Source: a virus | DNA: 43,098 nt | IMG/VR virus record: IMGVR_UViG_3300030451_004185 | Coordinates: 1-43,098 of that record | Direction: 5' to 3' (one strand) | In this document: in pieces, positions 1,665 to 27,322 of the stretch | Layout: every line of letters begins with the position of its first letter | Position numbering within the stretch: position 1 is the stretch's first letter | Notes under the pieces: model-generated | The model's input: the letters and a program-made list of their open reading frames with translations, nothing else | Told to the model about the DNA's origin: nothing | Databases searched by the model: none | Translations under genes and position numbers: made by a program

Positions 1665-1669
1665 AAATA

Positions 1670-1725: not shown

Positions 1726-1745
1726 AATAAAAGAAAGGAAAATAT

Positions 1746-2881: not shown

Positions 2882-2892
2882 GGAGGAGAACA

Positions 2893-3789: not shown

Positions 3790-3811
3790 GTTGTAACCCT
3801 TTTTAAAAGAA

Positions 3812-3963: not shown

Positions 3964-3977
3964 AAAAGGAATTAATA

Positions 3978-4177
3978 TGAGTAACAAAGAATCAAATGCA
4001 AACATCCGTTTTAATCGTAGTGAAATACAATGGTTAATACTTGCCCTACAATTCGCAGAAAAATGTTCTGAATTATGTAGTCAGACAGATATGTCTAACG
4101 CTTTTCAAAAATTGCGTGTAGATTTGGTCAAGATAAAGGATGCATTAATTGAAAAAGAAAATACAGTCGTTAGTTAA
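3978..4177 (+). CDS. Small protein, unknown (66 aa)
   Basis: I choose the ATG at 3978 (AAAAGGAATTAATATG) rather than an in-frame ATG at 3884, which lies inside the folded element upstream and has no ribosome binding site. The product MSNKESNANIRFNRSEIQWL... is short and helical with two Cys (EKCSELCSQ) and a C-terminal charged helix. Its end overlaps the next gene by 29 nt. No recognised family. Because it directly follows the 152-nt RNA element it may be regulated by it. Confidence 0.65.
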
Positions 4178-4367
4178 TTTAAATATCAACGATAAATTTG
4201 AAGTCGTTGGTTTAGATACAATTGGTAAGGTACTAAACACAAGCGATTTCGGTTGTCTAGTCATGTTAGAAAATGCAAAAGGCTACGACAAAGAAGGCAA
4301 TCCGACAGTAAAAAAAGAGCGTACTGTCATAGCAGCAGAAACAAAAGTAAGGAGATTAAATGAGTGA
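4149..4367 (+). CDS. Small beta-rich protein, unknown, TTG start (72 aa)
   Basis: The frame opens with TTG at 4149, preceded by AAAGGATGCATTAA, a good ribosome binding site at normal spacing; no earlier or better ATG exists before the conserved-looking body. Strand-rich sequence (NDKFEVVGLDTIGKVL, GCLVMLENA, KERTVIAAETKVRRL) resembles a small SH3- or Tudor-like barrel. Ends overlapping the helicase start by 8 nt, so probably co-translated with it. Could be a helicase accessory factor on position alone. Confidence 0.6.
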   Translation: MKKKIQSLVNLNINDKFEVVGLDTIGKVLNTSDFGCLVMLENAKGYDKEGNPTVKKERTVIAAETKVRRLNE

Positions 4368-5757
4368 ATTAAAACTTATGCCCCAATCACTAGAAGCAGA
4401 AGAGGCAGTAATAGGAATAATATTCAACGACAAAAACACAATAGAAGAAGCAAAAAAATATATCACAACCTTTGATATGTTTTACAACGAATCAAACAAA
4501 AGGTTATATCACAAATGCATGGAGCTTTATAGAAAAGAAAGCGACATCAATCCAATCACAATACTAGCATCACTAACAGAACAAGACAAAAAGAAATATC
4601 CTAATATAAATGCATACTTTCTAACTGGTCTTATGGAACTAGGCATGGCTCATCAAATGAAAGACTATGCTAAAATAGTTGCAGAAAAGTATTACAAACG
4701 TAAACTTATTAGACAAACAGAAAAGATACAAAAAGGTGCGTTTAGTGATAACAAAGAGTTTAATGAGTTAGTAGATGATATACATAAAATAAGTAGCAAG
4801 TTTCAATCTATTACTACAGGTAGAGATTTTGATCTTGAGCAATTAGTTGCAGATACAGAAACAAGTATATATGAATCTGTAAATCTAATTAAGTATGGTT
4901 ACAATAGTCTTAACAAACTTGCAGGTGGTATGACTCGTGGAGAAGTAACAGTTATAGGTGGCAGACCTGGACATGGCAAAACAACTCTTGTTGTAAACTT
5001 GTGTTACAATCTTCTCAAACAAGGTCTTAAAGTAATGATGATTAATAGAGAAATGAGTAACAAAGAAATGATGAAGAAGTTACTCGTACTATCTCATAAA
5101 GAACTATACTATAGTAAAATTCGTGGTGGTGGTAAAAATATGGATGAAAAAACTATTAAGAATCTATCAGAATCAATGAATAATATTAAACAATACAAAG
5201 ATAAATTGTTTATGTTTGACACATTGTTTACACTACAAGATAGTAATGCAGTTATTAATAAGTACAAACCAGATATTGTTATTGACGATTACATACAACT
5301 TATTAGAGTACAAAGTAAAAATGATGGAAGACGTTTCGAAATAGAAGAAATCATGCGTAGTTACAAAGAAACTGCTAAAAGATATAATTGTATACCTATA
5401 CTTGTAAGTCAGTTAAATCGTAATATAGAAGCTCGTATTGATAAAGTACCTAAGATGTCAGACCTCTCAGAAGGTGGTAGTATAGAACAGGTTGCAGAAA
5501 ACATTTTATTTGTGTATTATGAATACAAGGATAAGTACAAAGAATCAGAACTTGGTCCAGACCAAAATCAAATTGTAGCAGCAAAAGTTCGTTATGGCAC
5601 AGGTGGAATGATAACTATGGGATTCAATGGTAATAAATGTTTATTTCATGAAAACATTATTGTAAGACATGATAAAACAGAAATTATAGTTCCTGAAGCT
5701 TATCCGATTGAAGAGACTGCAAAAGGCGTTTTATCAATATTAAATGATAATGATTAA
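4360..5757 (+). CDS. dnaB: Replicative DNA helicase, DnaB type
   Basis: 465 residues, normal for the family. N-terminal domain begins MPQSLEAEEAVIGIIF, the classic DnaB opening. The RecA-like core has Walker A GGRPGHGKTT (200-209), the arginine-containing INREMSN strand (about 228-235, the H1a EM motif), Walker B DIVIDDYIQL (305-314), and motif SQLNRNIEAR (350-359) followed by MSDLSEGGSIEQ. It unwinds DNA 5' to 3' as a hexamer at the fork. No primase or DNA polymerase is seen in the window, so those come from the host or from the unseen part of the genome. Confidence 0.95.
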   Translation: MSELKLMPQSLEAEEAVIGIIFNDKNTIEEAKKYITTFDMFYNESNKRLYHKCMELYRKESDINPITILASLTEQDKKKYPNINAYFLTGLMELGMAHQMKDYAKIVAEKYYKRKLIRQTEKIQKGAFSDNKEFNELVDDIHKISSKFQSITTGRDFDLEQLVADTETSIYESVNLIKYGYNSLNKLAGGMTRGEVTVIGGRPGHGKTTLVVNLCYNLLKQGLKVMMINREMSNKEMMKKLLVLSHKELYYSKIRGGGKNMDEKTIKNLSESMNNIKQYKDKLFMFDTLFTLQDSNAVINKYKPDIVIDDYIQLIRVQSKNDGRRFEIEEIMRSYKETAKRYNCIPILVSQLNRNIEARIDKVPKMSDLSEGGSIEQVAENILFVYYEYKDKYKESELGPDQNQIVAAKVRYGTGGMITMGFNGNKCLFHENIIVRHDKTEIIVPEAYPIEETAKGVLSILNDND

Positions 5758-5965
5758 ATATAAACAAAACTTAGCACTTAAAAGACATGGTTGGAAAGCC
5801 GATGCAAGAAGAGCAGATAGGAATATATCATACTGCAATTCTTGTAATCAATGCTGGGAAAGTATAGAAACAAAAGAATATCTTAGAGGAACTCATAAGA
5901 TAATTTATTTAGTAGACTTTCCTACTTATGGCAAAAAGAAGGCAACATGTCCTAAATGTAAATAA
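5744..5965 (+). CDS. Zinc-ribbon small protein (73 aa)
   Basis: Overlaps the helicase end by 14 nt; the start may be either of two nearby ATGs (5744 or 5750). Two cysteine pairs, YCNSCNQC and CPKC at the very C-terminus, spaced about 37 residues apart, form a likely zinc ribbon. The N-terminus is basic (KYKQNLALKRHGWKADARRADR). Ends immediately before the nested stem-loop/terminator at 5970. Probably a nucleic-acid-binding accessory of the replication operon; exact role unknown. Confidence 0.65.
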   Translation: MIMIKYKQNLALKRHGWKADARRADRNISYCNSCNQCWESIETKEYLRGTHKIIYLVDFPTYGKKKATCPKCK

Positions 5966-5969
5966 TGAT

Positions 5970-6037
5970 AGAGGGAAGTCAGCCCTCCTCCTTCTTGGGT
6001 CGGATGTAGTGAGTCCGATTTTTTTTGACTTCCCTCT
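5970..6037 (+). terminator. Nested stem-loop with an intrinsic terminator inside and an anti-SD tract
   Basis: A perfect 12-bp outer stem (AGAGGGAAGTCA 5970-5981 with TGACTTCCCTCT 6026-6037) encloses a weak GCCC/GGGT hairpin (5982-6000) and a TCGGA/TCCGA stem (6000-6004 with 6014-6018) followed by eight T (6019-6026), a typical Rho-independent terminator. The first loop is CCTCCTCCTT, complementary to the AGGAGG (6043-6048) of the next gene. Outer stem and terminator cannot both be fully used during transcription, so this may be a switch or attenuator rather than a plain stop. Confidence 0.65.
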
Positions 6038-6052
6038 CGCTCAGGAGGCAAT

Positions 6053-6193
6053 ATGATAATAGCAGAAGTAATAGCACATCTACTTATAATATCCTTTTCT
6101 GTATTTTGTTTAGGAGTAGGTAGTGTTTTATTTATTATATCTATAAATGTATATTCAGATTGGAAAGAAAATGGCAAACAAAAGCAAAGCTAA
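6053..6193 (+). CDS. Single-pass membrane microprotein (46 aa)
   Basis: Start decided by a perfect AGGAGG six bases upstream. One long hydrophobic segment (about residues 6-33, containing LLIISFSVFCLGVGSVLFII) then a short polar tail YSDWKENGKQKQS. Overlaps the next gene by 23 nt. Small membrane proteins in early regions often alter host envelope or exclude other phages, but nothing here shows a specific role. Its ribosome binding site is complementary to a pyrimidine tract in the terminator element just upstream. Confidence 0.65.
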   Translation: MIIAEVIAHLLIISFSVFCLGVGSVLFIISINVYSDWKENGKQKQS

Positions 6194-6545
6194 AGGAAAT
6201 AGATTTGAATATCTGTTAAGAGATATGACAAAAGATATGGGTCTTAATTGCGTAAGAGCTTGGGGTAGTAATGGTCAGTCACTTGGTTGGCATGAAGAAG
6301 TTGATTTATTAATTGACGGAGTTATTAAAGTACAAGCTAAATGTCGTAAGAAGATTGCACAATGGATGATGCCATCTGATGAAGTAGATATACAAGTTAT
6401 AAAAGAAGATAGAGGCATACCATACGTTGTAGAACCATATGATAAATGGTTAGAAAGAGTAATAAAATTAAAACAAAAGGAGAAAAACAATGGCAATGTC
6501 AATGGATCAAGTCGCAAAAGAACTACAAAAAAACGGAGAGTATGA
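6171..6545 (+). CDS. PD-(D/E)XK nuclease, Holliday-junction-resolvase-like
   Basis: Start taken at ATG 6171 (GGAAAGAAA upstream); an in-frame ATG at 6147 has no ribosome binding site. 124 residues. Motifs match Hjc-like resolvases: KGNRFEYLLRDM (basic residue, Glu at about 12), a strand with RAWGSNG, the catalytic Asp in EEVDLLIDG (about 44) and Q-x-K in VIKVQAKCRKK (about 55-57). C-terminus is very basic. It would cut branched DNA during recombination or before packaging, completing the nuclease, annealase, SSB and helicase set. Confidence 0.65.
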   Translation: MANKSKAKGNRFEYLLRDMTKDMGLNCVRAWGSNGQSLGWHEEVDLLIDGVIKVQAKCRKKIAQWMMPSDEVDIQVIKEDRGIPYVVEPYDKWLERVIKLKQKEKNNGNVNGSSRKRTTKKRRV

Positions 6546-6711
6546 ACAATTACTAGCTGTTTGTCTTCACTGGTTAAAACAACTTGGGCATTTAAAACCA
6601 ATGAGTATTACTGAAAAAGATGATTTAGTTAATCAAATTCAGGAAGTATTACCCGTTCATGTTGTTGATGCAGTCAATAAAAATGTAAGTCTTTCTGACG
6701 AAGAACAGTAA
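6490..6711 (+). CDS. Small acidic helical protein, unknown (73 aa)
   Basis: Overlaps the nuclease end by 56 nt in another frame, but the ribosome binding site AAAGGAGAAAAACAATG is strong. Helical sequence with a single Cys-containing hydrophobic patch (EQLLAVCLHWLKQLGHL) and an acidic end SLSDEEQ. Last gene of the left rightward operon. No family recognised. Confidence 0.65.
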   Translation: MAMSMDQVAKELQKNGEYEQLLAVCLHWLKQLGHLKPMSITEKDDLVNQIQEVLPVHVVDAVNKNVSLSDEEQ

Positions 6712-6814: not shown

Positions 6815-9800
6815 TTATTTTATTTTCTTTGGCATGCTCAAAGGAGGTACTATTGGACCTGGTAAAATATCAATACCAAAAGCATCATAATATTTTTTAG
6901 TAAATTGTGCTGATTTATATATGTTTTCTGTATTAACAAATCCTGGCAATGACCTTATATTAAGAGGAGATATATTAAAAGCTTGTTTACCCCAATCTAA
7001 TTGAGTATGATATTTTCTATTCCTCATACCATTACTATCAAAAAATATGTCAAGTAGTGAGTAAGCAACAAACATCGCACCTAGTCCAGCCGCACTACCA
7101 AACAACTTAACCCAATCATGAGTTTCTACTTCTTCTTCATCTGATAATGCTTTATATAACATATAAGTACTCATAAAAGTTGCACGAAGAAGTGGGCTAG
7201 TGAGTGCAGGACCCACCTTATTTACATTCGATTTAAACATAAAGTTTTTTAAAGTTTTCACACCTTGTGCAGTCGCACCTAATTTTGCCCAATCCATATC
7301 TATATTAAATAAAATTAAATCATAAAGTGCAGAAGTAAATCCATGCATAAGTAACATTTGAGCTCCTTTTGCTTTATTAGGATTTGCTATTCTCATTGCT
7401 TTATTTCTTTCTCTTATATTTGTTAGGCTATGTATACCTTTGACAGTAAGATATCCTAACGCTCCTCCCACAGTTGCCATAGTACCTACTGCTGCTGCAG
7501 GGGCACCAGCTATTGCAGTTGCACCATATAAAGCACCTATTGCAGGTCCCGCCACTTTAGCACCACTTCCCATAGCTTGAGTTAATAATGCTTTTAAAAA
7601 TCCATATCCAGCTTTTATGTTTTGTGTTCCACTGAAATCTTTAGGTGTGTATCCATAATTAGCAAGATACATTCTTTTATAAGCATGATAACCATAGGAC
7701 ATTCTTTGTGTAGACCATACTCTAATATGATGAAACCATTGCATAATATCATTACCAAACATATCTCCAACACCTTCAGCACCTAATGTAAAATCAAGTT
7801 GATTTACCATTTCTTGACCCCATTTAATAGCTATAGGGTCACTCTTATCTGTAGCTGCTCCTGATGCAATAGCATGATTTACGCCTATCATAAAAGAAGT
7901 TCCTCTTACTAATTTTTCTGTAAGACTCATAGACACATATTGTCTAAGATTTAATAGAAACTTACCAATACTTCTACTAGGACTTTCTCCTGGTACTGAT
8001 CTTAATTTTCCTGTAATAACCCAGTTAGCCATTGACCTAGTTACTTGTGTCCATTTGCTATTATTTTTTTCTATTATTTTTAATAAACCTTTAGCTAGAT
8101 TTTTTTCAGCTTGAGTTACATCTGGGTCTTTTGAATTAATAGCTTTTTTATATTTCTTTTTTAATTTATTAAAACTTTTTTGTTCTTCAGGATTTCCATA
8201 TTGTATAACATGAGTCTCAACAACATCTTCAAAACTTAATATTCCACTCTGAACAATTAAGGCTTGGTTTTCTTCTAATTGCATATCAATAAATCCAGTC
8301 AATGTAGAATCATAACCTACTTCCATAAATTTATTTACCATTGCTGCCATGTTAAGTGGTCCAGTCAACCATCCTCCAAGACTACTAAACGTATGTAAGC
8401 TCTTCATTCCTAAAACAAACTTACGCATAGACCTATCATTAACTTTACCTCCTGTTAATCTAGATAAGTCTTTCATGCTAAATCTCATACCTAAAAAACT
8501 TCCTTCAGCATTAATACTTCCGAAAGCTTTTCTGTATTGATTTACTAAGTAGTTTCTATATCCAGCATCATCAACGTCTGCATAAGCTTCTAACATTTTC
8601 ATTAAAGTCTCACCCCTAACAATATTTCTTTTTGTTCTAGCTATCATATCAAAAACGACACTAGAATCTTTTCTTACATATTTATAAGGTATGTATCCAC
8701 TTACAGATTTAAAATGTTTTTCATAAGGTCTTATAGCATCAGGTATATCATCATCTTTATATGCACTACCATCTTGTTCAGTATATCTTGATAATGCTTG
8801 TTGTAAATTAGATTTAGCTTTTAACAAACTACCTAATCTCTCTATTCTTGTGTTTCGTAATTTAGCTTCTTGAGCAGAAGGACTATCAGTTGGAAGTACA
8901 GCTATTTTTAACAAGCTTATTTCGTTATCTATATTTTCTAATGCACCAGTAATTGCTTCACCTAAATTGTGATTATAATACATTCTAGGATAATATCTTT
9001 TTACAAAATTACCTTTAATAATAGTTCCATCTTCTAATGCATATCTTTCTGATACATTCTGAACTTTATTTTTTAATCTATTCTGATTTCTTTCATATAT
9101 TGCATCTTCTATTAATTTTTGTTGGTCTTTAAAAGTTTCAAGTTCGTTTTGTATTTCACCAAATAAAGTTTCAGGAAAATCTATTTTATCTTTTTTAAAT
9201 CTTCTTACAATAGAATCATATTGTTGTTGTAAATTATTTAAAGAATTTTGATTGTCAAGTCCAACCTCTTCAAGTATAGTATCGATATGTTGCAAACTAG
9301 AATCGAATGCAGTTGCAATTAACATAGTAGATGTTCCAGTTTTTATTTTATTCATACCAAAGTCAACTTGAGGTAAGGTAACAGTTTCTGTTTCTCCAAA
9401 TTTAGTATTTTTTTCATATGTTATTTGATAAGGTACAACATAATCTGTCATACTAAATTCAGGATTTTCTTCTCTTAATTTTTCTAATACTTTTTTATCA
9501 AACTTTTTACCCTTCCATTGGAACTTAGTATCTCCTGAACTTTCATAAACCCCCACAGGAACTTCATTAACAAAACTATACACCTTACCAAAACCTTCTT
9601 CATCAGTTCTTATAAATGCTTTACCTAACATAATGTCTGTAACAAGTTGATGCAGATGTATGTCTTCGTTAATCATTCCTTTTCCTTTAAGAAAGGCTTG
9701 CATGGTTGTCATTAGATTATCATATATATCTTTTAAACCAGCTTTATTTCTTCTAATACCATCTACTTGAGGTATGTCTGTATCTGGGTGAGTAAGTTGA

Positions 9801-10513
9801 GCTTCAAGATGTGAAGGTACATCTATAGGTCCATTGTATGTAGACATGGCTCTATTTAAATACATAGGAAACTTGTATATCTGTTCCTTAAACTCCATAA
9901 CTTTTTTACTAACTGCACTTCGTAGTACAGATTTAGGTAAAGCAAATTCAAAAGCAATATTGCCTTTCATTAATCCTCTTGCATTTCCATCTTTATCTAC
10001 ATCAAAAGCTGGTGCTAAATAATTATATATAATACGAAGTTCTTCCATTGGTAACTGATATAAGTTTGGAAGTTTTGTAAAAGGATCAATATCGACAGGT
10101 CTACCTAATGCTCTTAGCTCATCAAAATTCATTTTAGCAGTTACATCAAAAATTATATCTTCAGCTAATGCTTTAAAATCAGGATTCATCCTAATGTTTG
10201 ACATTATTTTTGTTACTATTAAAGCTTGTTCTTTTTTTTGTTTTTCTTCAGTAGCAAAAGACCTATCTAAATATTTTTTTACTTTAGCCTCATTAAGAGT
10301 TCCTTGCCTTCCTAAGTCTGCAATATTCATAGTAGCATTTATAGCCCTATTTACAAAGTTACCTATTGCTTTATCTACTTTTTGTAATTTTGCACTAAAG
10401 CTTACATCTGCAAATGCTTTATTAAGCTCATCATAATGTAAGTTTGCAGCTTTTACATCATCGTCATTTAAAACTTCTTTTTCTTCTACTACTTTGCATT
10501 TATTATTTGCCAC
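6815..10513 (-). CDS. Large internal virion / DNA-ejection protein (1232 aa)
   Basis: Start is GTG at 10513, overlapping the 2571-residue gene by 11 nt, with AAGGA eight bases before. Long helical N-terminal two thirds with coiled-coil stretches; then Gly/Ala-rich hydrophobic segments in the last third (GPAIGALYGATAIAGAPAAA around residue 990 and AAGLGAMFVAYSLLDIFF near 1150) that could span or perforate a membrane. Size, position after the tail genes and association with another giant virion protein resemble the ejected proteins of podoviruses (T7 gp15/gp16, crAss-like cargo). It probably travels inside the capsid and helps DNA cross the host envelope. No enzymatic motif recognised. Confidence 0.6.
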   Translation of the reverse strand: MANNKCKVVEEKEVLNDDDVKAANLHYDELNKAFADVSFSAKLQKVDKAIGNFVNRAINATMNIADLGRQGTLNEAKVKKYLDRSFATEEKQKKEQALIVTKIMSNIRMNPDFKALAEDIIFDVTAKMNFDELRALGRPVDIDPFTKLPNLYQLPMEELRIIYNYLAPAFDVDKDGNARGLMKGNIAFEFALPKSVLRSAVSKKVMEFKEQIYKFPMYLNRAMSTYNGPIDVPSHLEAQLTHPDTDIPQVDGIRRNKAGLKDIYDNLMTTMQAFLKGKGMINEDIHLHQLVTDIMLGKAFIRTDEEGFGKVYSFVNEVPVGVYESSGDTKFQWKGKKFDKKVLEKLREENPEFSMTDYVVPYQITYEKNTKFGETETVTLPQVDFGMNKIKTGTSTMLIATAFDSSLQHIDTILEEVGLDNQNSLNNLQQQYDSIVRRFKKDKIDFPETLFGEIQNELETFKDQQKLIEDAIYERNQNRLKNKVQNVSERYALEDGTIIKGNFVKRYYPRMYYNHNLGEAITGALENIDNEISLLKIAVLPTDSPSAQEAKLRNTRIERLGSLLKAKSNLQQALSRYTEQDGSAYKDDDIPDAIRPYEKHFKSVSGYIPYKYVRKDSSVVFDMIARTKRNIVRGETLMKMLEAYADVDDAGYRNYLVNQYRKAFGSINAEGSFLGMRFSMKDLSRLTGGKVNDRSMRKFVLGMKSLHTFSSLGGWLTGPLNMAAMVNKFMEVGYDSTLTGFIDMQLEENQALIVQSGILSFEDVVETHVIQYGNPEEQKSFNKLKKKYKKAINSKDPDVTQAEKNLAKGLLKIIEKNNSKWTQVTRSMANWVITGKLRSVPGESPSRSIGKFLLNLRQYVSMSLTEKLVRGTSFMIGVNHAIASGAATDKSDPIAIKWGQEMVNQLDFTLGAEGVGDMFGNDIMQWFHHIRVWSTQRMSYGYHAYKRMYLANYGYTPKDFSGTQNIKAGYGFLKALLTQAMGSGAKVAGPAIGALYGATAIAGAPAAAVGTMATVGGALGYLTVKGIHSLTNIRERNKAMRIANPNKAKGAQMLLMHGFTSALYDLILFNIDMDWAKLGATAQGVKTLKNFMFKSNVNKVGPALTSPLLRATFMSTYMLYKALSDEEEVETHDWVKLFGSAAGLGAMFVAYSLLDIFFDSNGMRNRKYHTQLDWGKQAFNISPLNIRSLPGFVNTENIYKSAQFTKKYYDAFGIDILPGPIVPPLSMPKKIK

Positions 10514-13500
10514 AACCTAATTCCTTTTTCATTTGATTATGAGACATAACTTTATTATTTCTAACATTAGTTAAAGACTTTACATCTTTATATTGGTTAG
10601 ATAATATATCGTTATAATTTTTAAAATACTCTCTAATAATATCTGGGTCTAATGTAGTTTCTCCAAATTCTTTTACTGGAGGCATTGTTCTTAAATCTTT
10701 TCTTACTGAACCAATCTCTCCTCTTATAACTCCATTAAGATAAAAGAATGTTGCTGCTTTTTTATTAGCTTCATCAAGTACTGCAAACTTTTTTGACCAT
10801 GTATTATAAAAAGTTATAAAATCTTTAGAGTAATCCCAAGTCTTACTAGTCATTTTATCTAAGAAACTAAGTGATTCAGTTTCACCATTTTTCTTTTTAC
10901 TTTCAAATAACTTTGCTAAAGAATCTCCTAATTGTTGTGCATAAACTTGAGCTGATTTTAAATTAGAATCTTTGCTAGTGTCAGCTAAGTCTGCTAATTC
11001 ATCTTTAAATGTTTGAAATGTTTGTCTAGTAGCTAGTCTATGAACTTCTGTTGACAAATCATAATGAGTATTAAAAAACCTTTGCCTACCACCTGGAAAT
11101 CTATCTATAATAGTTGCAAGACTTACAGATATTTTTTCTTGCAAACTTGTAGGTTGGTCAGAATTTTCTGCAAACTTAGCATCAATTAGTAATGCTTGAA
11201 ATCCTTCTAATAATTCTTTTGCTTTTTGGTCTGAATCTGTATCTTGTTCTCCAAGCATTTCTATTAAAAATCCTTTTCTGTCTTCAACAAAAGCACTATA
11301 CATCATAGATTGGTCAAACAATGTATCAAAGTCAACAGCCATACCGCCACTTTGTCTTTGGTTATCAACTACACTATTTATACCTAATACTTTTTTTAAG
11401 AATCCTTGATTTAATACTTCTGTTACTTCATCTGGCAAAGGAGCATCAGGATTAGTTGGATCATAAAATAAATAATCTCTTATTTTCGTAACACTATATT
11501 TCCAATCTTTAAGTAATAAAACTTTTGGATGGTCTACAGATGCTTGTAAATATAATCTTAATAAATCTTCAAACTTACCTTCAAAAGGTTTTCCATTTTC
11601 GTCTATTACAAAATCATCTTTAACAATCATATCTAAAGGAGTGGCTTTTACTCTTATAACCCTACCACCAAGAGTAAAATCTAAATATCCATCTCTTCCA
11701 AACATACTATTTAATGCACCTGCAAATCTTGTTGTGTTTACAATCTCACCAATAGCAGTCTCTCCATATGTCATAACATCAATCATTTCTAATGTCCCAC
11801 TAATATTATCTAGTGTTCTTGCTTCATTTGAACTTCTATATTTACTTAATGCTAATCCTTTAGTAGGTTGTAATTGTTTTTTAAGCTGACCATAAAACTC
11901 ATCATCTAGCCATACTAAGTGTGCAGTATCATGGTCATGGTCTCCTTCAAATCTTTCTTTTACTTCTCTTGGACTTATAATAAATGAATCACCTATAGTA
12001 GGGTCTATTTCTTTTATTCTATATAATCCATATCCAACACTACTAGCAACTGGATGTCTAACAATCATAGTATAAAATTTATTTTTCTTTAACCAATTAT
12101 TAACAAAATTTAATCTTTCTTCACCAGTTCTTAAATTAGATGGATTACCAGCTCTTGAAAGAACTTCTTTTATTAACCCAGGGTTTGCACCTATAATAGT
12201 TTCTTTATCGCTTACTCTTCCTTTGAAATCTGCTCTAAAATCTAAGTGACTACCATTCATTTTAAAATCAGCTAAAGGTTTTAATACTTTGTTTTTTAAT
12301 ATTTCTTTTAAGAATTGATTAATACTTGGATGTCTACCTACACCTAAGTTTCCTAATTCTTCAACATTTTGAGGCACCACATCGTAAAATCTAAGAGCAG
12401 CTTCTTTTAATAGTTTATTAATAGCCTCACCTTCATTTGCATATTTTAATATTCTATTTATAATATTTTTAGGACTCATTGCATTTTGATCTATATTATC
12501 AAACTTGTCCATAATTGATTGTTGAAATAATTTGTCTTTTATATAGTAACTAAGCTGACTACTAAACATACTAGAGTTCTTTTGTTTAGGAGGGCTAAAC
12601 TGAATCATACCTATTGCAGTTCCTGGTAGTTCATGTACTGTATTCATATCAGTATAATCACCTTCATGTATTTTAGCTTCATCATTAGTCATTAAGTGGT
12701 CAAGCCTAACTGATTCACTATTATACAATTCAACATGTCCATTACTATCTCTTATAGCAGTAGCAATAACTTTACCTTTTTGGTCAACAAACTCTGCATA
12801 TTCATCGGGTCCTAAGTCTAATGTCATTTCTTGATGTTTTGCTGCATGAACATTATCTCCATCAGCAACATACTGCACAGTCTTAGCTCTTTTTGCATCA
12901 GGTTCTGTACCAAAATGTTCAGGATATTCTATTGCAAAAACAGACTCAGATGTAAGAGTTTGACCATCACCAATGTATTGCATTTCTCCGTCAATCATTT
13001 GTTGTAAAGGTACTGTAGTTGCTTTATTATTTGCAGTTTCACCTCCATTAGGTACATATCTTATACTTGTAGTAGCACTATCTATGTACATTACTTTTCT
13101 ACTAGGCAAAGATGGAGAAGTTGTAACAGGAGTAAAAGGTATTTTAATCCTTTTCATTATTACTTCTGGCTTCATAAACACATATTGTGAACCAAACAAT
13201 TCTTTTAATGCTAAATGTCTTTGTATAGCATGTTGCTGATACAACTTAAAATCACCTTTAAATACATGAAGAAATAATTCCTGTTCCTTCATGTTAAAAT
13301 ATTGAGGACTTAACATGTTACTAAACATTCTATTTATCTTATTCCACTTAGGACTATCTTTACTTTCATCATCTGGTTTTAATTTTAAGAATGGTTTTAA
13401 TTCTTCTCTTAAAAATGCTTTTATATTTTTTTGTGCATTTCTTGTTTCATCTGTAATACTTGCAAGAATTAGCTTACCATCTTCTCCTCTACTAGATATA

Positions 13501-16500
13501 GGAACTAAACCATTTTTAACGAATCCATCTCTATATAAGTTCCAAATTACATTTCCACTTATAAAACCATATATTCCTTTAACACCCCATTTTTGTCTAC
13601 CTGTTTCTGTTTTACCAAGTTTGATAGGTCTGTATATATCTTTAGCTTTCATCATGCTAAAAAAGTTTTTAGTTATAAATCTAGTATAAAATCTTTTTAA
13701 TCCAACTTCTGGTCTAGTATTACCATCAAATCCTTTTGGTCCAGTTGCTCTAAACTTTCCTATCTTTGGTTTTAACTTACCATCTTTATCAAAAGTATCT
13801 TTTGTTTCAGATGCAGCTGCATATATAATACCTTCCCATTCTACAATATCACCATTAACACTTCTATTTGAAGTACCACTATTTAAGTTATGTACTGCAT
13901 TAAAATATCTTCTAAACAATCTTCTTGGTGTTCCATCTCCACTTTTAATTTGTTCAGCTAAAGTAAATCCTTCAGGAGTAACTAAGTCAAAGTCAGGGTC
14001 ACTAAGAGCAATTAAAGAATTTTCAAAAGCATTTTCAGGGTCATCATTAATTAGTTGTATAACAGTATCATTTATTTTTTGTGCTTTTTCAGGAGTAATA
14101 TTATAATTATATCTTACCCAAAATGTTCTAGCTATCTTTGTATAATCTTTTACACTTTGATCTGTATTTTCAAGATTACCAGCAATATCTCCAATATTTT
14201 CTCTTACATATTCAAATGCATCTATAACAATAGTTTTAAACTCATCTTCCATTGCACTGTCACCTGTTAGAAAATCACCAATGCCTCTTGATATTTTATC
14301 CATAGTTCTTCTGTATGTCTGTTTAAACTTAGAACTATTTAATTTTGTTTCGCTCCAAAGTCTCCAGTTATCAGCAAACGGAGTTTTTTCCCAATATGGA
14401 TTAGTCATTTCTACAAACTCTAAAAATTGAGATTCAGTAAGACCATATTTATCTTTTGCTTGTTTCCAAAGTCTATGCATATTTTTATCAAATCTTTTTT
14501 TCTGACCACCAGTAAGTCTTATTTCATTTGAACTAGCAGTAGAAAACAATTCAGTATCTTCATCACTATCTATATCAGCATCATCTAAATCTTCAAATAA
14601 ATCATTTATACCTCTTCCAGTAAATTCGATAACAGCTTCTTTTGCTTCTTCTTCTGTAAATCCACCTTCGTCTTCTTGCTGAGTTTCTTCTGTAGTTTCT
14701 TTAGTCCCTCTAATAATATTATTTACATTTATTTCTACAGTCTCACTAGCGTCCATATCTTCAGGGTCTACATAATTTTCTGCATCAGCTGATTGAACTA
14801 AACTTTCTATATAACCATCATCATCAGTTTCTATATCTTCTTTGACCTCACTCATTCCACCTGTTGTTTTATCAGTTTTAGGGTCAAAAGATGCTTTTGG
14901 GATAGAGTCATTCTTTTTTATAAACTTTACAATTATACTGTCTTTATAATCATCTGGGTCTTCAGGCTTAATAAAAACATCATCACTCATATAAATATCA
15001 GAAAATATTTTTTCTATTTCATTTTTAAATTTATTTAATTGTTTTATATGAAAATCTAAATCTGATTTTATTTGAATAATTAATTCTATATTCTGACCTA
15101 TAGACCCCTTACTAATTTGTTTAACGCTAACAACTTTACTTGCTCGTAATATAGAAAATAAAGCTGGTTTTACTTTTTTTAATGCACCTACATATTTAGA
15201 CATCCATAGTCTTGGAATATCATATTCGTCTACAAGTTGTTTTATAGATTTTTTAGGTAAAGTAGAAGGGTCTTGTTCAGATTCTGTTTCTCTAGATTCT
15301 ATTTCTTTAATCTGTTCATCTATTGCTTGAATATCATCTTCAATAAATGTTCGTTCTAAATCTATTTCTTCATTTTCAAGTTGTTTTAATAAGGCATCTT
15401 TTTTTCTTTCAAGTTGTTTTTTTAGTTTAGATTCTTTTTTACTTCTATATTTTTTAGGGTCTTGAAATATATCTTGTTCTAAAACTTTGTCTAAAGCTTT
15501 TTTAGTTTTTGGTAAAACAGTAGGAGTATCCTCTTTAGATTTAGTTTCTTTTTGTTTAGTTTGTTGAGGCTCACCTTTTAATGATTTAATTAACTGTTCT
15601 TGTTTAGCAATAGCTTTTTTAACTGCTGGTGTTTGTTTACTAGTTTTGTATAAGTTTAATTCTGTTTGAGCAGATTTAATTTTAACTTTATTTAAATTTT
15701 CTATAGCAGTATCATAAGGAGGGTCACCTTCTCCTAAATCTTGTAATTCAAAATTTTTAATTTGAGCTTCAATATTGTTTATAGTTGATTTTAATTTTCT
15801 TAACTCAGCACTATATTGTTCTCTTTCTAATTTTACTTTAGGAGCTTGTGTTTGTTTTTGTACAGGCTTTGAACCTTTTTTAAATCCTTTTAATCCTTTT
15901 TGAAACTCCATTACTTCACTAGTCTGAGTAACAAATTGCATATTGCTGATACTAATTTTCTTTATTTGTTTATTAGGAAGTTCGACAACCATTATGTTGT
16001 TCCTTCCTTCTTTTGATAAAGTTCCAATTATTTTAGCTTTTGTACCACCTAATGCTGGAGTTCTTAAAATAACATCTTTTCCAATAACAGGAACATTTTC
16101 TTTTTTTTGTTGTGTTTCTATTATTTTCTTTTGTCTTTTCTTAGCAATAGTATCAGGATTACTTTCTTTTATTAAACGTCTTCTTTTTTCTTCAAGCTCT
16201 GCAATCCTATATCTTTTTTGATTTTCTGCCGCAACTGTTGGATTATTAGTTTCTTGCAACTCTCGTATTTCTATATCAATATCATTTATTTGCGACAGAA
16301 TAATATCTCTTTCAACATTATTATTTAATTTAGTATTACCTTCATATGCTTCAATACTTGCTTCATCAATATCAAACATTCCTTCACCAGGTAAGTCATC
16401 TATTTCTTCTGTAATATCTGTTTTAATTTCTGGGTAAGGATTGCTCCAACCATAATCTTCTAACATTTCAGGAGAAGCACTTAGTATTTCTTTTACATTT

Positions 16501-18218
16501 GATTCTAAAAGAGCTTGAGGATTACCAGCTAATATTTCAACTTCTCTTTGTTTTACTTCATCTACTGATACATCGTATTTATCAGCTATATCTTGTTCAT
16601 AATTTTCACTAGCCAACATACCAACAATTAAATCATTGTCGTAACTTTTAGGAACTGCTCTTTCTTCAGCAGTTTTATTACTGCTTTCAAGTTCAGTATC
16701 AGTAAGAGTAACACCATCTGTAGTTTTATTTATACCCCTTACTGCATCAGTTATATCTGCAAAACCTTTAAATGCAGTTCCATATATACCACCTATAATA
16801 GAACTTTCTATTATTTGTGCAATGCTCATATCATACTCAGGTATATTTAAAGTTTTCATATACTCTGCTGTAAATTCTTGAGCACCTTCTGTTGCACCTT
16901 CAAATCCAGCTGCTGATACGTAAGGTTTTTTTGAAAGACTTGCAAATAGAGATTTAACTACTGACTTTTTTGACTTAGGATTATTAATAAGTTTGTTTAA
17001 AGTACCAGCATATTTACCAAGAAAAAAATCTCCAAGAGTATTTGCACCTTCTAAAAGTGTACTATATGTACCATATCTTTTAGCAATACTTTCACTAGCT
17101 TGTCTAATCTCATCATCAGTCATTTGATCTATTGTTTTAGATACTCCGTTATTTAACTGTATTGTAAAAAGTTCGTTAAATCTTTTTGGATTATATGTAG
17201 AATGATTAGGGTCTAACATAGTCTCTCTTAAAGACTTTGCTCTAGATTTTGACCTTTGATATTCTTCTTGAATATCTAAAACCATAGCACCTGATTCTTG
17301 TAAGTAACCTAATCCAAGACCTGTTGCAGTAGTACCTCCTCTCATTAAAAAACCTGCTAAAGCAGTTTTAGGATTAGTCATCATTAAATTAGGAACACTA
17401 GATATTAAACTAGGTAATTGTTGAGGAAAACTAACAAAAGCATTATTCATTACATTCCATACAATCCTACCATAATCAGTTGCTTTAGTTGCATCATTCC
17501 ACATTTCTTCTGTAGACATTGTACCATAGCCTTTTGCCTGTGCTTGTTCTTCTGACTGTTTTTTTATTTGTTCAGATATAGCACCAAAATCTTTTCCCAT
17601 AAATTCACCAAGACTTGGCATATTTAAATCAACACCAGCTGACATGCTAGACAACAAAGCATCTACATTTTCTCCCATACTAGGATATACTGAATTATTA
17701 AAGTTTGATGTTTGTTGTTGAGCAAATCCTCTTATACCAGCTCTTGACCTATTCATATATTCATTTAAAAGAAAATTAACATCGTTTTTACTTTTATTTG
17801 ATAATGGTAAAGCTTCTGATTTTTTTTGTATTGTTTTAACTAAACCATACATATGGTCAGTCCAATAGTCTCTAGTCTCTTCTCTTCTACTTGCAGGTAC
17901 TGTTTTTTCATAACTAGGAGATGTATTAAGATTTGCTTCTACAAATCGACCAATAGAATTGTATAATTCTAAATCATCACTTGATTGAGTTCTGTCTATA
18001 TTGTGATAACTTTTACCATCAAACTTCATAGATGGTAAACCTTGTTGACTTAATATATCGTTATAAGCAGTTATAAAATTTTCATATGGTCTATGTTTAG
18101 TTTTCTCATCTCCAAACTCAAGGAAAGGGTCAAACTCAATAGTTCTTAAACTGCTTTGAGGAACATCTAGTTCCCCTGGTATTTCATTTCTCTTTTTTTT
18201 CTGAATTGGTCTTAACAT
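10503..18218 (-). CDS. Giant virion protein, candidate packaged two-barrel RNA polymerase (2571 aa)
   Basis: By far the largest gene. About residues 1-480: helical, with a hydrophobic patch near 250-310. About 480-1250: charged linkers and coiled coils. About 1250-2571: enzyme-like. Candidate catalytic marks of the two-barrel (double-psi beta-barrel) RNA polymerase fold, in order: GDGQTLTS (D1751, S1757; compare DG-x-G-x2-S of YonO/RDR-type barrels), K1794, SPPKQKNSS (K1878, K1880), RHP (R2054) and GDHDHD (D2093, D2095, D2097). In bacterial beta prime the R-x-P and DFDGD motifs lie 35 residues apart; here 39. Single-chain virion polymerases of this type are known in crAss-like phages. Proposed role: injected with the DNA to transcribe early genes. 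Virion location is inferred from neighbours; polymerase identity from motifs only. Confidence 0.55.
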   Translation of the reverse strand: MLRPIQKKKRNEIPGELDVPQSSLRTIEFDPFLEFGDEKTKHRPYENFITAYNDILSQQGLPSMKFDGKSYHNIDRTQSSDDLELYNSIGRFVEANLNTSPSYEKTVPASRREETRDYWTDHMYGLVKTIQKKSEALPLSNKSKNDVNFLLNEYMNRSRAGIRGFAQQQTSNFNNSVYPSMGENVDALLSSMSAGVDLNMPSLGEFMGKDFGAISEQIKKQSEEQAQAKGYGTMSTEEMWNDATKATDYGRIVWNVMNNAFVSFPQQLPSLISSVPNLMMTNPKTALAGFLMRGGTTATGLGLGYLQESGAMVLDIQEEYQRSKSRAKSLRETMLDPNHSTYNPKRFNELFTIQLNNGVSKTIDQMTDDEIRQASESIAKRYGTYSTLLEGANTLGDFFLGKYAGTLNKLINNPKSKKSVVKSLFASLSKKPYVSAAGFEGATEGAQEFTAEYMKTLNIPEYDMSIAQIIESSIIGGIYGTAFKGFADITDAVRGINKTTDGVTLTDTELESSNKTAEERAVPKSYDNDLIVGMLASENYEQDIADKYDVSVDEVKQREVEILAGNPQALLESNVKEILSASPEMLEDYGWSNPYPEIKTDITEEIDDLPGEGMFDIDEASIEAYEGNTKLNNNVERDIILSQINDIDIEIRELQETNNPTVAAENQKRYRIAELEEKRRRLIKESNPDTIAKKRQKKIIETQQKKENVPVIGKDVILRTPALGGTKAKIIGTLSKEGRNNIMVVELPNKQIKKISISNMQFVTQTSEVMEFQKGLKGFKKGSKPVQKQTQAPKVKLEREQYSAELRKLKSTINNIEAQIKNFELQDLGEGDPPYDTAIENLNKVKIKSAQTELNLYKTSKQTPAVKKAIAKQEQLIKSLKGEPQQTKQKETKSKEDTPTVLPKTKKALDKVLEQDIFQDPKKYRSKKESKLKKQLERKKDALLKQLENEEIDLERTFIEDDIQAIDEQIKEIESRETESEQDPSTLPKKSIKQLVDEYDIPRLWMSKYVGALKKVKPALFSILRASKVVSVKQISKGSIGQNIELIIQIKSDLDFHIKQLNKFKNEIEKIFSDIYMSDDVFIKPEDPDDYKDSIIVKFIKKNDSIPKASFDPKTDKTTGGMSEVKEDIETDDDGYIESLVQSADAENYVDPEDMDASETVEINVNNIIRGTKETTEETQQEDEGGFTEEEAKEAVIEFTGRGINDLFEDLDDADIDSDEDTELFSTASSNEIRLTGGQKKRFDKNMHRLWKQAKDKYGLTESQFLEFVEMTNPYWEKTPFADNWRLWSETKLNSSKFKQTYRRTMDKISRGIGDFLTGDSAMEDEFKTIVIDAFEYVRENIGDIAGNLENTDQSVKDYTKIARTFWVRYNYNITPEKAQKINDTVIQLINDDPENAFENSLIALSDPDFDLVTPEGFTLAEQIKSGDGTPRRLFRRYFNAVHNLNSGTSNRSVNGDIVEWEGIIYAAASETKDTFDKDGKLKPKIGKFRATGPKGFDGNTRPEVGLKRFYTRFITKNFFSMMKAKDIYRPIKLGKTETGRQKWGVKGIYGFISGNVIWNLYRDGFVKNGLVPISSRGEDGKLILASITDETRNAQKNIKAFLREELKPFLKLKPDDESKDSPKWNKINRMFSNMLSPQYFNMKEQELFLHVFKGDFKLYQQHAIQRHLALKELFGSQYVFMKPEVIMKRIKIPFTPVTTSPSLPSRKVMYIDSATTSIRYVPNGGETANNKATTVPLQQMIDGEMQYIGDGQTLTSESVFAIEYPEHFGTEPDAKRAKTVQYVADGDNVHAAKHQEMTLDLGPDEYAEFVDQKGKVIATAIRDSNGHVELYNSESVRLDHLMTNDEAKIHEGDYTDMNTVHELPGTAIGMIQFSPPKQKNSSMFSSQLSYYIKDKLFQQSIMDKFDNIDQNAMSPKNIINRILKYANEGEAINKLLKEAALRFYDVVPQNVEELGNLGVGRHPSINQFLKEILKNKVLKPLADFKMNGSHLDFRADFKGRVSDKETIIGANPGLIKEVLSRAGNPSNLRTGEERLNFVNNWLKKNKFYTMIVRHPVASSVGYGLYRIKEIDPTIGDSFIISPREVKERFEGDHDHDTAHLVWLDDEFYGQLKKQLQPTKGLALSKYRSSNEARTLDNISGTLEMIDVMTYGETAIGEIVNTTRFAGALNSMFGRDGYLDFTLGGRVIRVKATPLDMIVKDDFVIDENGKPFEGKFEDLLRLYLQASVDHPKVLLLKDWKYSVTKIRDYLFYDPTNPDAPLPDEVTEVLNQGFLKKVLGINSVVDNQRQSGGMAVDFDTLFDQSMMYSAFVEDRKGFLIEMLGEQDTDSDQKAKELLEGFQALLIDAKFAENSDQPTSLQEKISVSLATIIDRFPGGRQRFFNTHYDLSTEVHRLATRQTFQTFKDELADLADTSKDSNLKSAQVYAQQLGDSLAKLFESKKKNGETESLSFLDKMTSKTWDYSKDFITFYNTWSKKFAVLDEANKKAATFFYLNGVIRGEIGSVRKDLRTMPPVKEFGETTLDPDIIREYFKNYNDILSNQYKDVKSLTNVRNNKVMSHNQMKKELGCGK

Positions 18219-18220: not shown

Positions 18221-19555
18221 TTATCTTAGAAAACTACTATTTGCTTGGTTACGAACTGTTGTACTATCTGTAGGTAAGAATGTTTGATTCATTACTGTAT
18301 CTTCTGTATCAATTGTATCTGACTTACCCCAATTACCACCAAAACCATAAATTTGTGGAGAATTATCGTAAGTATAATCTAGACTTTGAATAAGTTTATC
18401 TACCATTGATAATCCATGAACATGAGCATCTTTAGTAACTTGGGTTCCATCATTATAATAATCTCTAATTACTTGTAGTTGATCCATTACAGTTGCTCTA
18501 TGCATTGGATGGTCAAAATCTCTAATTATATCTGCTGCAGTTTTATCATCATGTTTTGGTGTCATAGCATATTCTTTGTATGCTTCTCGCAATTTAGGAA
18601 TACTCATCAATGCATCAATAAGGTCTAATTTATTTTCAAGTTCTCTTTGTACTTGAAAGTTTGGTTCACTTCTTTCAGAACCACCGCCATATCTTTCATT
18701 AAAATTATTGCCATATCTATTTTGCATTTCTGCTAACTTTGGTGGTGTCATTGATGTATTTGGTCCAACAGTTTCTATATAAGTATCTATAGCAGTACTG
18801 ATATCTGAATCAAGTCCTTTAACTGTAGTAATATACTTGTTCATTGATTGACCAGCCATTAATTGATTTTCTTCTGCTAAAGCTTTAGTACTTTTATCTA
18901 ATCTATTTGTAAAGTTATCTACAAAGGTTTGTAACCTACCTTGTATGGTAGGGTCTTCAGAATCTTGCATAGCTTTTGCAATAGCAACATTAACTCCACT
19001 TATTCCTTCTTTTTTATATATAGAAGGCAATGCTTGTGCAAAATCAAATTCAATCTGTCTTATATCTTCTTGTTGCAATTCATCTAATCTAGTTTTTAAT
19101 TGACCAGATACATATTTATAACTTTCATCGTTTAACATATTAGTAGTTACTAATTTTTTAATATTATCTTGTATAGCAAACAAACCTTCTTTGTTATCAT
19201 CATCATCTAATTTTCTAATTTGCTGAGTAACTGCATCAATACCTTCATTTCTTTTTTGCATAAAATTTTTATGATTTAATAAGTTATTAACGCCTACTTC
19301 TAATACAGCTTTTGTTTGAGGTAAGAAAGCATCTGGCATATAATTTTTTAATATACCAATCTGTCTTTCTATGTTTTCAAAAGTGTTATCTCTTTCTACT
19401 GCACTAAAAGCTTTTTCTACTTGTTGCTCAATAATTCTATCATTGTTTCTAGCTAACTGAAAAACATTATTAGCACTTATACTTGCAGTTTGCCCAGCAT
19501 TTATTTGTTTTTCTTTTATTATTTGATTATTTATTCTATTTAATAAGTCAGACAT
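18221..19555 (-). CDS. Internal virion protein, coiled-coil (444 aa)
   Basis: Almost entirely helical, Gln/Asn/Asp-rich, no signal peptide or long hydrophobic segment; for example ENIERQIGILKNYMP and NKYITTVKGLDSD. Two nt separate it from the giant gene downstream. Set between a 285-residue Gly/Gln-rich protein and the giant virion proteins, it fits the middle-sized ejection protein of podoviruses (like T7 gp15 or P22 gp20 by position). Function inferred from context only. Confidence 0.55.
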   Translation of the reverse strand: MSDLLNRINNQIIKEKQINAGQTASISANNVFQLARNNDRIIEQQVEKAFSAVERDNTFENIERQIGILKNYMPDAFLPQTKAVLEVGVNNLLNHKNFMQKRNEGIDAVTQQIRKLDDDDNKEGLFAIQDNIKKLVTTNMLNDESYKYVSGQLKTRLDELQQEDIRQIEFDFAQALPSIYKKEGISGVNVAIAKAMQDSEDPTIQGRLQTFVDNFTNRLDKSTKALAEENQLMAGQSMNKYITTVKGLDSDISTAIDTYIETVGPNTSMTPPKLAEMQNRYGNNFNERYGGGSERSEPNFQVQRELENKLDLIDALMSIPKLREAYKEYAMTPKHDDKTAADIIRDFDHPMHRATVMDQLQVIRDYYNDGTQVTKDAHVHGLSMVDKLIQSLDYTYDNSPQIYGFGGNWGKSDTIDTEDTVMNQTFLPTDSTTVRNQANSSFLR

Positions 19556-20828: not shown

Positions 20829-20993
20829 TTATTTCTCACTCATATTTATTTGATATATTTTACCATTAAAGTTTATTTCTTTAACTAAACCTTTACTGCT
20901 TATAGCAATATTTTCTTGTGGGTTTACAGATGTATTACTGGTAATTGGTTGAGATTCGTGTCGTGAGGCTCTTATAGCTTTTTTATTTCTCAT
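20829..20993 (-). CDS. Small protein, unknown (54 aa)
   Basis: Starts at ATG 20993 overlapping the stop of the 1087-residue gene (ATGA). N-terminus is basic (MRNKKAIRASRHESQ), middle polar, end predicted as a beta hairpin (KGLVKEINFNGKIYQINM). Too short to classify; conserved overlap structure argues that it is translated. Confidence 0.55.
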   Translation of the reverse strand: MRNKKAIRASRHESQPITSNTSVNPQENIAISSKGLVKEINFNGKIYQINMSEK

Positions 20994-23900
20994 TTTATAC
21001 TCTTTTCTCTGTATATAACAGATATGTCATGTAACTCAAAGTTTCTAAATGCAAGACCATTGTCTCCACTGCTTTTTATCCTAAGCTGAATCGTATGAAC
21101 GTTTCTTCCACTAGACTTTGGATTAGGGGTTAATTTAATTGTATTATACCCACTTGGACTAGTAGTTAAATCGCTTGGGTCTACTGCTATAGCAACACTT
21201 TGTTTGTCTGCAAAGTATTCAAAACTTACTTTCCTTGTTCCAGACATTGTTCCTTTATATGTAAGATATATAGCTTTTATATTTTTTCTTTGACCAATAT
21301 CTGTAATTGAAAAATCTTTAGTTCTTATATCAAAAACTATAGTACTACTAGCACTATTATTTAATGAATAGCTATGAAAAGAAACAGCATTGCTACTATT
21401 TATACTTACTTGAGAAACTAAATTATCATGTAGTTCTAAATTACTTCTTTTATTTGCAGAGTCATTTAATCCTTCGTCAGACTTTGACCAAGACTCACCA
21501 ACAATATTATATATCCAACCATTACCATTATCAGCGTATACAATTATATGTTTTTCTTTTGGCTCATATGCTATTGTAAATGCTTTTTCATCTGAGCTAA
21601 CAGTAAGGTGTGATGCAAATACAGACCTTGATAGTTTTTTATCAATTAAATTAACAACCTGTTCTCCATCATAATGATATACACCATCAAGATTTACCCA
21701 TGCAACACCTTTATTTGTATAACATACACACTTACTACCAAAGACTCCCATATGTTTGTAAGTATCTTCAAGATATTCTAATGTTTTTGTAGCATTAAGT
21801 AAATACATTGTATTGTGTTTATACACAAGCAATCTATCAGCATAAGAAGCTAATGCAGTTACTTCATCACCATCATTAATATCTACATCTAAAAAATTTT
21901 CTGAAGGTATTACATCAGGTTTATTCGGTAGCGATTTGTATATTCTATCTCCATACAAGTTTCTTCTATAGTTAGTTTCACCTTTAAATTTTTCCCATAA
22001 TATATCTACATTGCCATAATACATTCTTCTATTAAGACTTACTGCACTTCTAAATCTAATTTCTTCTATAGTATTTAATGGGTCATAATCATACCCAGCA
22101 TTAATACTAAATGTATTAGATAAACTAGGGTCTATAAATTGTAAAGCAGTATGAGTATAATGATCAGTTGCAGTATCTCCTAATGACCAAGCATTTATAG
22201 ATGTTCCTTGACTTTTAATAACACCTTTTTCAAAATCACATTTAGCTAAAAGAAATGGGTCATCAATAACTTCTTCTTGTCTTTCTTTATCATACTCTTT
22301 ATAATAAATATTTGCACCAGTAATTCTTTTTCCTCTAGAACCAAATCCACCTGTAGAAAGTTCTCTTATTATTGTCTTTAAACCAAGTCGTTCATTTTGT
22401 AAAAATATACCATTTCTTTGACTATCAAATTCATAATAACCAGTTTCTTGAATTCTATCATATACCCAACTATAATAAAATTTATAATTACCATTCCAAG
22501 TTCCTCTTTTATCAACTACTTGCTTTATACTATCTATTGATATTACATCACTAGCTGAAGCAGCTACTGAATAATTTAGCCTAACAATAAAATCAGGCAA
22601 TGTACCTATAACAGGTGAGTTTTCAATATTAGATATTTTTGTAAGGTCTATAATAACATCTTTCCAACCACCGCCTTTATTTTCGTTTAACCAATCAGTC
22701 CCTAATACATAAATAAGATTATTACTTGAAGAACTATATGTGTGGTCATCTGTTATAATAAATTCTATACTAGTTAAAGCTGAGTCATCTGGTATTGCTA
22801 TTTTTGCAACTAATAAATTATCTGATGTTTGAAAATCAGTATTAAATAAATTATCCATTTCAATTCGATAACTACTAGCACCACTTGCAAGTTTTAAATT
22901 AAAAAGTTTTAAGTCAGTAGCATCATCTGTAACAGTTGCTAAGTGATGAAATAAATCTATATTAGTTATTTCTGCTATTTCATTTTGTGCTGTTTTTACT
23001 CCAACTCTATATTGAGTAGTATTATCAGGGTCATATATATTTAATAACAAAAATCCTTGTTGGTCATTATCAATTGAAGAAGGAGTTATTTGGTCTCCAA
23101 TTGTTCCATCGTCATTTACTTTATGTACTATAGGAGTAAAATCAGTATATTGCCAATTTACTCTACTCCATCCGCTATTATTTTGTGCAAAAACTCCTTC
23201 AATTTTAATACTTTTATTTGCAACAGAACTGCTAAACTCAGAATCTTTTCCCCATACACTATCATATGTTTCAGGCTTTACACTTATAAAAAAATAATTA
23301 TAGTCTGTCGCTCCTAAAGCTGTTCCAATTTGATATGCATTAATATTGCCAACTGCTGAAACAACACTTGAAGTAATAAATTGTTGAGCTCCATCAGAAC
23401 CTGCAATTGCTACTTCATTGTAAGTTGTTCCATATATATCATTCATTACTTGATTACCAACATCAGCAATTATACTTCCTATTTTAGTATGATTTTCTAC
23501 TCTTGATACTTTTTCAGAAGTCATTGAACCACTACTATTTAGAACAAAAGATATAGGGTCTGATTCTCCAAATGTTAAAGTTTCTAATGCATCATTTTCT
23601 ATAGCATCTATTTCTAATCCAAGAAATCCTCTTGTTGGATTGTTAGTAGAGGTTTCTATATTATCGTTAAATACAATTTTACCATTTGTTGGTTTTAGAA
23701 TAGAAGAATTTTGAGTTATTTCAGATATAGTATTTATTGTTGCATTAAAATATTTACGACTTACTGCACCAAAAAATTTTGTGTTATTAGTAGGCAAATA
23801 AGGACTGCTTGAATTTAAACTAAATGACCCATCGCTATATCTAATTACACCATCATATATTGCTATAGAAGGATACAATATTCCAGTGCTACTTAAATTA

Positions 23901-25452: not shown

Positions 25453-25462
25453 ATATTTACCC

Positions 25463-25936: not shown

Positions 25937-25944
25937 AACTCTCC

Positions 25945-27320: not shown

Positions 27321-27322
27321 AA

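Follow-up and report, generated by a model that had tools for sequence, protein, structure and literature searches.

Among the relatives of the polymerase that transcribes all genes of cells, the single-chain two-barrel RNA polymerases are the simplest, and to our knowledge few of them have been characterised. The virion RNA polymerase (vRNAP) of N4 is related to the T7-type single-subunit RNAPs. The closest described systems to the locus reported here are the vRNAPs of crAss-like phages. According to a review, the vRNAP of phi14:2 drives rifampicin-resistant early transcription and the RNAP-associated cargo proteins of crAss phages are probably ejected (PMC10136315), and the same protein class was found by mass spectrometry in crAss001 virions (PMC10172136). 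In the phi14:2 record gp77, which is the protein of PDB entry 6vr4, is followed by the giant gene gp76, and both are noted as virion proteins by mass spectrometry.

The stretch of viral DNA analysed here, hereafter the window, is 43,098 bases long and contains on its minus strand an uninterrupted frame of 2571 aa with an ATG start. The assignment of sub-domains within this protein (barrels, bridge helix, trigger loop) rests on element order and conservation. The features of the gene are:

10503-18218, minus strand: gene of the 2571-aa giant protein, whose C-terminal third is predicted to be a single-chain two-barrel RNA polymerase (ORF, family alignment, AlphaFold2 and Foldseek)
14109-18218, minus strand: N-terminal extension, residues 1-1370, fast-evolving (low conservation in alignments)
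11184-13676, minus strand: polymerase core as modelled, residues 1515-2345 (best PDB match 6vr4_A)
12564-13106, minus strand: beta-like barrel DPBB-B as assigned, residues ~1705-1885, with invariant D1751, K1779, K1794 and K1849 (strand-rich in DSSP of the model; placed by element order)
11901-12266, minus strand: beta-prime-like barrel DPBB-A as assigned, residues ~1985-2106 (DSSP of the model; hhalign aligns this block to crAss virion RNAPs)
12051-12059, minus strand: R-x-P motif, RHP, residues 2054-2056
11928-11942, minus strand: predicted catalytic D-x-D-x-D, here DHDHD, D2093/D2095/D2097
11700-11804, minus strand: candidate bridge helix, residues ~2139-2173, TYGETAIGEIVNTTRFAGALN (long model helix after DPBB-A; a weak match to crAss virion RNAP by hhalign, in the right order)
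11511-11573, minus strand: candidate trigger-loop region, residues 2216-2236, LRLYLQASVDHPKVLLL (Q, A, V and D invariant; in-order match to crAss FLNAFVDNAKDP)

A first-pass annotation had proposed a polymerase active site in this protein, and the positions it gave for D1751, K1794, K1878, K1880, R2054 and D2093/2095/2097 were all correct. D1751 lies in the context YIGDGQTLTS, R2054 in RHP and the three aspartates in GDHDHDTAHL (codons 11928-11942). The bare D-x-D-x-D pattern is weak evidence, with six overlapping matches at four separate places in the protein and about one in shuffled sequences. The combination of R-x-P with D-x-D-x-D 39 residues further on was found in only 0.2% of shuffles. 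Among the D-x-D-x-D sites of the 2571-aa protein only the one at D2093/2095/2097 is conserved, and this site is compelling because it is conserved across the family. The word "virion" in the earlier title is an inference and cannot be read from the sequence itself. In the N-terminal extension, residues 440-450 contain EGATEGAQEF, a motif retained in some relatives.

When the whole 2571-aa protein was compared with Pfam, PHROG and PDB sequences, nothing meaningful was found, and a tblastn search of INPHARED (50,697 phage records), for which the window protein and two of its remote relatives served as queries, returned no relatives. One match (E 0.4), to a gene of Sulfitobacter phage AX that is annotated as hypothetical only, was judged to be chance. 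Two scans of cellular genomes found no relatives either, and therefore no host was assigned. The family was instead assembled from IMG/VR, where a step-wise search gave about 42 other contigs, or 43 distinct contigs with the window. Close relatives share 33-47% identity across the whole chain, with one further copy at 94%, and remote relatives share about 20-30% in the core. No description of this family was found in the literature searched, though one may exist.

The three aspartates, whose retention in homologues the first-pass annotation had left to be checked, are present in 43 of 43 contigs. The Arg and Pro of R-x-P are kept in all 41 contigs that reach the motif, and D1751, K1779, K1794 and K1849 are each invariant in the 41 contigs that reach them. 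The choice of K1878 and K1880 as motif lysines did not hold, since Lys is found at these positions in 11/24 and 15/24 members; K1779, K1794 and K1849 are conserved instead. The loop around the aspartates reads DGDGD in 10 contigs, DYDGD in 10, DNDGD in 6, another sequence with G in the fourth place in 9, DHDHD in 7 and DQDHD in 1, so that DxDGD is found in 35/43 and DxDHD in 8/43. On the tree, the DHDHD and DQDHD rows cluster together within the DxDGD family. Since cellular RNA polymerases classically have D-x-D-G-D as their catalytic loop, the family as a whole shows the textbook loop and, judged from these sequences, the DHDHD of the window is a derived local variant of it. The change of the glycine to His in the window's clade could mean that the DxDHD loop is inactive and that the protein serves structure or ejection. 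However, this clade keeps the three aspartates and R-x-P as well as the Lys and Asp residues that are invariant in the other barrel, and the active phi14:2 RNAP itself has DFDID and not DFDGD, which makes a dead polymerase highly improbable.

A template-free AlphaFold2 model of residues 1515-2345 (831 residues), built from an alignment of 24 members, reached a pLDDT of 82.5 and a pTM of 0.79. When this model was compared with the PDB by Foldseek, the top match was the phi14:2 virion RNAP, 6vr4 (E 1.1e-11, prob 1.0), followed by QDE-1 (E 3e-9), RDR2, the Thermus phage RNAPs P74/P32 (P23-45 type), bacterial (Thermus) beta-prime and AR9/phiKZ. The fold of this confident model thus matches two-barrel RNAPs, as had been anticipated for this region, with 6VR4 as the best match. 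RNAPs occupy the top of the PDB list and the overall fold of the catalytic core resembles that of known two-barrel RNAPs, although agreement with solved RNAPs is moderate by TM-score (0.49 to 6vr4, normalised by query length) and the rmsd values are high. A T7/N4-type RNAP was rejected as an identity, as there was no Pfam or PHROG match and the fold matches were to two-barrel RNAPs only. In BFVD, the best Foldseek matches were unnamed proteins (TM 0.78), with crAss polymerases next. Three of the BFVD entries, A0A516LSI3, A0A516LUR1 and A0A516M7V2 (TM 0.67-0.78, 14-24% identity, E 2e-49 to 2e-31), belong to the same family by fold and have no function name in the tables used.

BLAST and HMMER searches gave no match to crAss-like virion RNAPs. 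The family was also compared by hhalign with a profile of nine virion RNAPs, eight from Crassvirales and one from Flavobacterium phage Fpv1, which is not assigned to that order. The score was 40.9; among 200 column- or block-shuffled profiles the highest was 28.3, and the reversed profile gave 21.4. At the profile level the sequence similarity to crAss-like virion RNAPs is statistically supported. The aligned region is the block from R-x-P to DxDxD, with a 39-residue spacing identical to that of phi14:2; the spacing of 39 that had earlier been set against the known R-x-P motif is therefore also that of phi14:2. The second-best profile match, weaker alone and in the right order, pairs YGxxAIGEIxN...LQAAVDNxK of the family with GKxxxGIxAN...LNAFVDNAK of crAss and falls at the candidate bridge/trigger region. 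That the motif arose by chance in a large structural protein unrelated to RNAPs, a reading that can draw on the one or so bare D-x-D-x-D matches per shuffle, is already refuted by the conservation in 43/43 contigs, the RNAP fold match and a profile score above all 200 shuffles, and has next to no probability. Membership inside the Crassvirales RNAP clade was rejected as well, because the family and the crAss RNAPs form separate clades (support 100/100) on long branches. Taken from the sequences and the model, it is close to certain that the C-terminal third of the 2571-aa protein is a single-chain two-barrel RNA polymerase.

The gene lies in a leftward block of virion genes, of which the main features are:

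6815-10513, minus strand: 1232-aa partner, whose gene overlaps the polymerase gene's end; candidate for a role in ejection or in association with the polymerase (gene order, AlphaFold2, Foldseek)
18221-19555, minus strand: 444-aa virion-block gene adjoining the polymerase (order conserved in closer relatives)
20990-24253, minus strand: virion-block giant protein of 1087 aa (conserved in 7/7 compared contigs)
24385-26005, minus strand: metallophosphoesterase/exonuclease-like gene and GH108 endolysin (PHROG 7339 and 315, PF05838)
30494-38215, minus strand: head and packaging block with SU10-type major capsid protein (MCP), P22-type portal and terminase large subunit (TerL)

TerL, portal, MCP, the GH108 endolysin and several conserved giant proteins share the strand of the polymerase, and among the eight genomes compared the order terminase-portal-MCP...giant-polymerase-partner is retained wherever the contig reaches. 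The earlier expectation that the virion genes run leftward, that the early operons are separate and rightward and that giant proteins adjoin the polymerase is borne out in the window and related contigs, where the 1232-aa partner is always next. The family of this partner is directly downstream of the polymerase in every locus that extends past the polymerase gene. Its AlphaFold2 model is mostly helical (pLDDT 69.7), and its Foldseek matches are other fragments of proteins that also contain the polymerase core. BFVD A0A516LSF9/LUR3/M7T1, which are companions of A0A516LSI3/LUR1/M7V2, match the partner. In BFVD A0A516LW39 and A0A516LAI4 the polymerase core is in the second fragment and the partner fold in the third, and since these fragments are adjacent, the predicted structures suggest that polymerase and partner are probably naturally fused in these two proteins. 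A fold comparison of the partner with crAss cargo proteins gave no crAss match. Elsewhere in the block, the 369-aa protein at 24385-25494 (minus strand) consists of an N-terminal zinc-ribbon-like stretch and a metallophosphoesterase/exonuclease-like part and lies beside the endolysin; in phi14:2 a metallophosphoesterase likewise adjoins a glycoside hydrolase. No tape-measure gene was recognised in the phage.

The position of the gene also bears on whether the enzyme is packaged. A true two-barrel RNAP could be made late and stay out of the virion, serving late genes or acting inside the infected cell only, and non-virion two-barrel RNAPs of this kind exist in P23-45 (gp64), AR9 and phiKZ (PMC10770324). 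However, the gene is within the virion block beside other giant proteins and has a conserved giant partner, an extension of 1300-1500 residues would be superfluous for a cytoplasmic enzyme, and the phi14:2 counterparts at the same gene position are virion proteins. An unpackaged polymerase is therefore considered fairly unlikely.

The genes that a packaged polymerase would read are expected on the opposite strand, which carries the DnaB, SSB-like and nuclease genes:

107-6711, plus strand: rightward block, presumed early, with DnaB helicase (4360-5757), an SSB-like gene and a DUF932 gene; joined to 40394-43098 in the permuted contig G008
40219-40393, plus strand: divergent region between the leftward virion and rightward early blocks, with a leader conserved in five contigs

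G008 is a circularly permuted relative that is about 95% alike over long stretches (loci L058-L060). In it the two rightward stretches of the window form one block, and the genome is about 49 kb. About 2.4 kb between the window ends, present in G008 and absent from the window, contain the larger part of a ParB-like ORF together with a portion of a Cas4-like exonuclease ORF. At 26546-31851, much of the stretch from MCP to endolysin has an identity to G008 of 78-83% or is interrupted, whereas most of the rest is about 95% alike, and an exchange of tail or receptor-binding genes is the likely cause. The DUF932 (PF06067) protein of the presumed early block is encoded at 2893-3789 (plus strand).

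In the divergent region, 40260-40310 (plus strand) contains TTGTAG-17 nt-CATATT/TATATT followed by GTGTGGTATCCCCCTATG, conserved in five contigs. By its sequence this element looks like a sigma70-type promoter of the rightward block that the host could read. The window has no excess of TTGTAG-17-TATATT-like matches over chance, and a search of the intergenic gaps for a repeated virus-specific promoter turned up nothing but A-rich stretches, for example ribosome-binding sites. The rightward leader at 40318-40365 (plus strand) holds two interleaved stems, GTTGC..GAGATTC..GCAAC..GAATCTC, whose pairing could give an H-type pseudoknot. Compensatory changes preserve the second stem in the related contigs G001, G002 and G003; the first is preserved there by eye, with a one-base register shift. 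The pseudoknot may act in cis as an RNA element of the early operon. Strong intergenic folding was also detected on the plus strand of the rightward block at 41792-41860 (z -4.0), 41147-41197 (z -4.8) and 1670-1726 (z -6.0), the first of which, conserved in two related contigs, resembles a three-way junction. Rfam gave no match for the leader or for these three stretches. Shine-Dalgarno-type ribosome-binding sites precede many genes, especially the rightward ones (17/34 starts), which suggests without proving it a host outside Bacteroidota.

The content of the rightward block raises the question of whether the polymerase also, or mainly, primes phage DNA replication rather than making mRNA. 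The window and a 48.9-kb near copy have DnaB, SSB-like and exonuclease genes, and no primase or DNA polymerase was recognised among their scanned ORFs. QDE-1 and the N4 vRNAP illustrate that roles beyond transcription are possible for such enzymes. However, many small ORFs are still unassigned, nothing specific points to a priming role, and for many phages the host primase and polymerase are enough. Priming is accordingly regarded as unlikely.

Packaging in the virion together with transcription of the early genes is, as a joint proposal, very probable given the gene position, the large extension with its partner and the crAss precedent. Against it stand the moderate TM-scores, the lack of fold similarity between the partner and crAss cargo proteins, the negative search for a repeated virus-specific promoter and the TTGTAG-17-TATATT-like pair that the host could read. 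Under this proposal residues ~1515-2345, probably with the flanking C-terminal part, would fold as two facing double-psi barrels with a bridge helix and a trigger-loop region. D2093, D2095 and D2097 would hold the catalytic Mg, and K1779, K1794 and K1849 would supply the beta-like half with its conserved basic residues. Packaging, ejection or template engagement would be the task of the long, variable N-terminal extension together with the adjacent 1232-aa protein. The enzyme would be made late, packed in the capsid and ejected with the DNA, and in the newly infected cell it would transcribe the rightward block ahead of the host RNAP or in its place. Gene order and precedent make packaging, ejection and this choice of genes likely, and the enzyme is presumed to be catalytically active.

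It was also considered whether the phage itself is a crAss phage. Profiles of the TerL, portal and MCP of the window lineage detected none of the phi14:2 counterparts at E 0.1, and the best BLAST matches of TerL are other phages. With these profiles missing phi14:2 and the polymerase in a separate clade, an identity within Crassvirales was rejected, and by these sequence comparisons the resemblance to crAss is limited to the polymerase and gene order. A somewhat favoured reading is that the family represents a second, independent lineage of ejected single-chain two-barrel RNAPs outside Crassvirales, in phages of about 49 kb, with a dedicated 1232-aa partner that is fused in some relatives and with one clade in which DxDGD became DHDHD, maybe altering metal use or fidelity. 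The family is diverse (43 contigs, with identity as low as about 20%), and its presence in phages that are not related to crAss by packaging or capsid genes would mean that virion transcription of the crAss type occurs more widely. The family also adds many new sequences to the question of how this enzyme class arose and offers in the DxDGD and DHDHD clades a natural test of the role of the glycine in DxDGD, and a function is assigned to a giant protein family that had no name in the databases searched.

Compared with known systems, the window polymerase is most like the crAss-like vRNAPs (phi14:2 gp66/gp77, PDB 6VR4; crAss001 gp50), as both are single giant chains with a two-barrel fold and 39 residues between R-x-P and DxDxD. 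As in crAss-like phages, the polymerase gene is last but one in the leftward virion block, a second giant gene is next and the early genes are on the opposite strand. However, identity is about 10% and the clade is separate and long-branched, the catalytic loop is DFDID/DFDVD in crAss and mostly DxDGD in the window family (DHDHD in the window's clade), the genome is about 49 kb rather than about 100 kb, and the 1232-aa partner has no detectable crAss counterpart. QDE-1 (the Neurospora RNAi polymerase) and RDR2, the second-best PDB matches, share the two-barrel single-chain catalytic core; they are cellular RNA-silencing enzymes rather than phage virion proteins and have no sequence match. The P23-45 vRNAP gp96 and nvRNAP gp64 are likewise phage single-chain two-barrel RNAPs (PMC10770324), but the RNAP of gp96 lacks a clamp and forms the N-terminal part of a tape-measure protein, whereas the window polymerase is C-terminal in its giant protein. 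YonO of SPbeta is, by its description, a similar single-chain relative of multisubunit RNAPs (PMC5467207). The virion RNAP of N4 and other Schitoviridae is also a giant, ejected single-chain polymerase of a short-tailed phage, an ejection that gene order and precedent suggest for the window phage too, but it is a T7-type relative whereas the window enzyme is predicted to be of the two-barrel kind.
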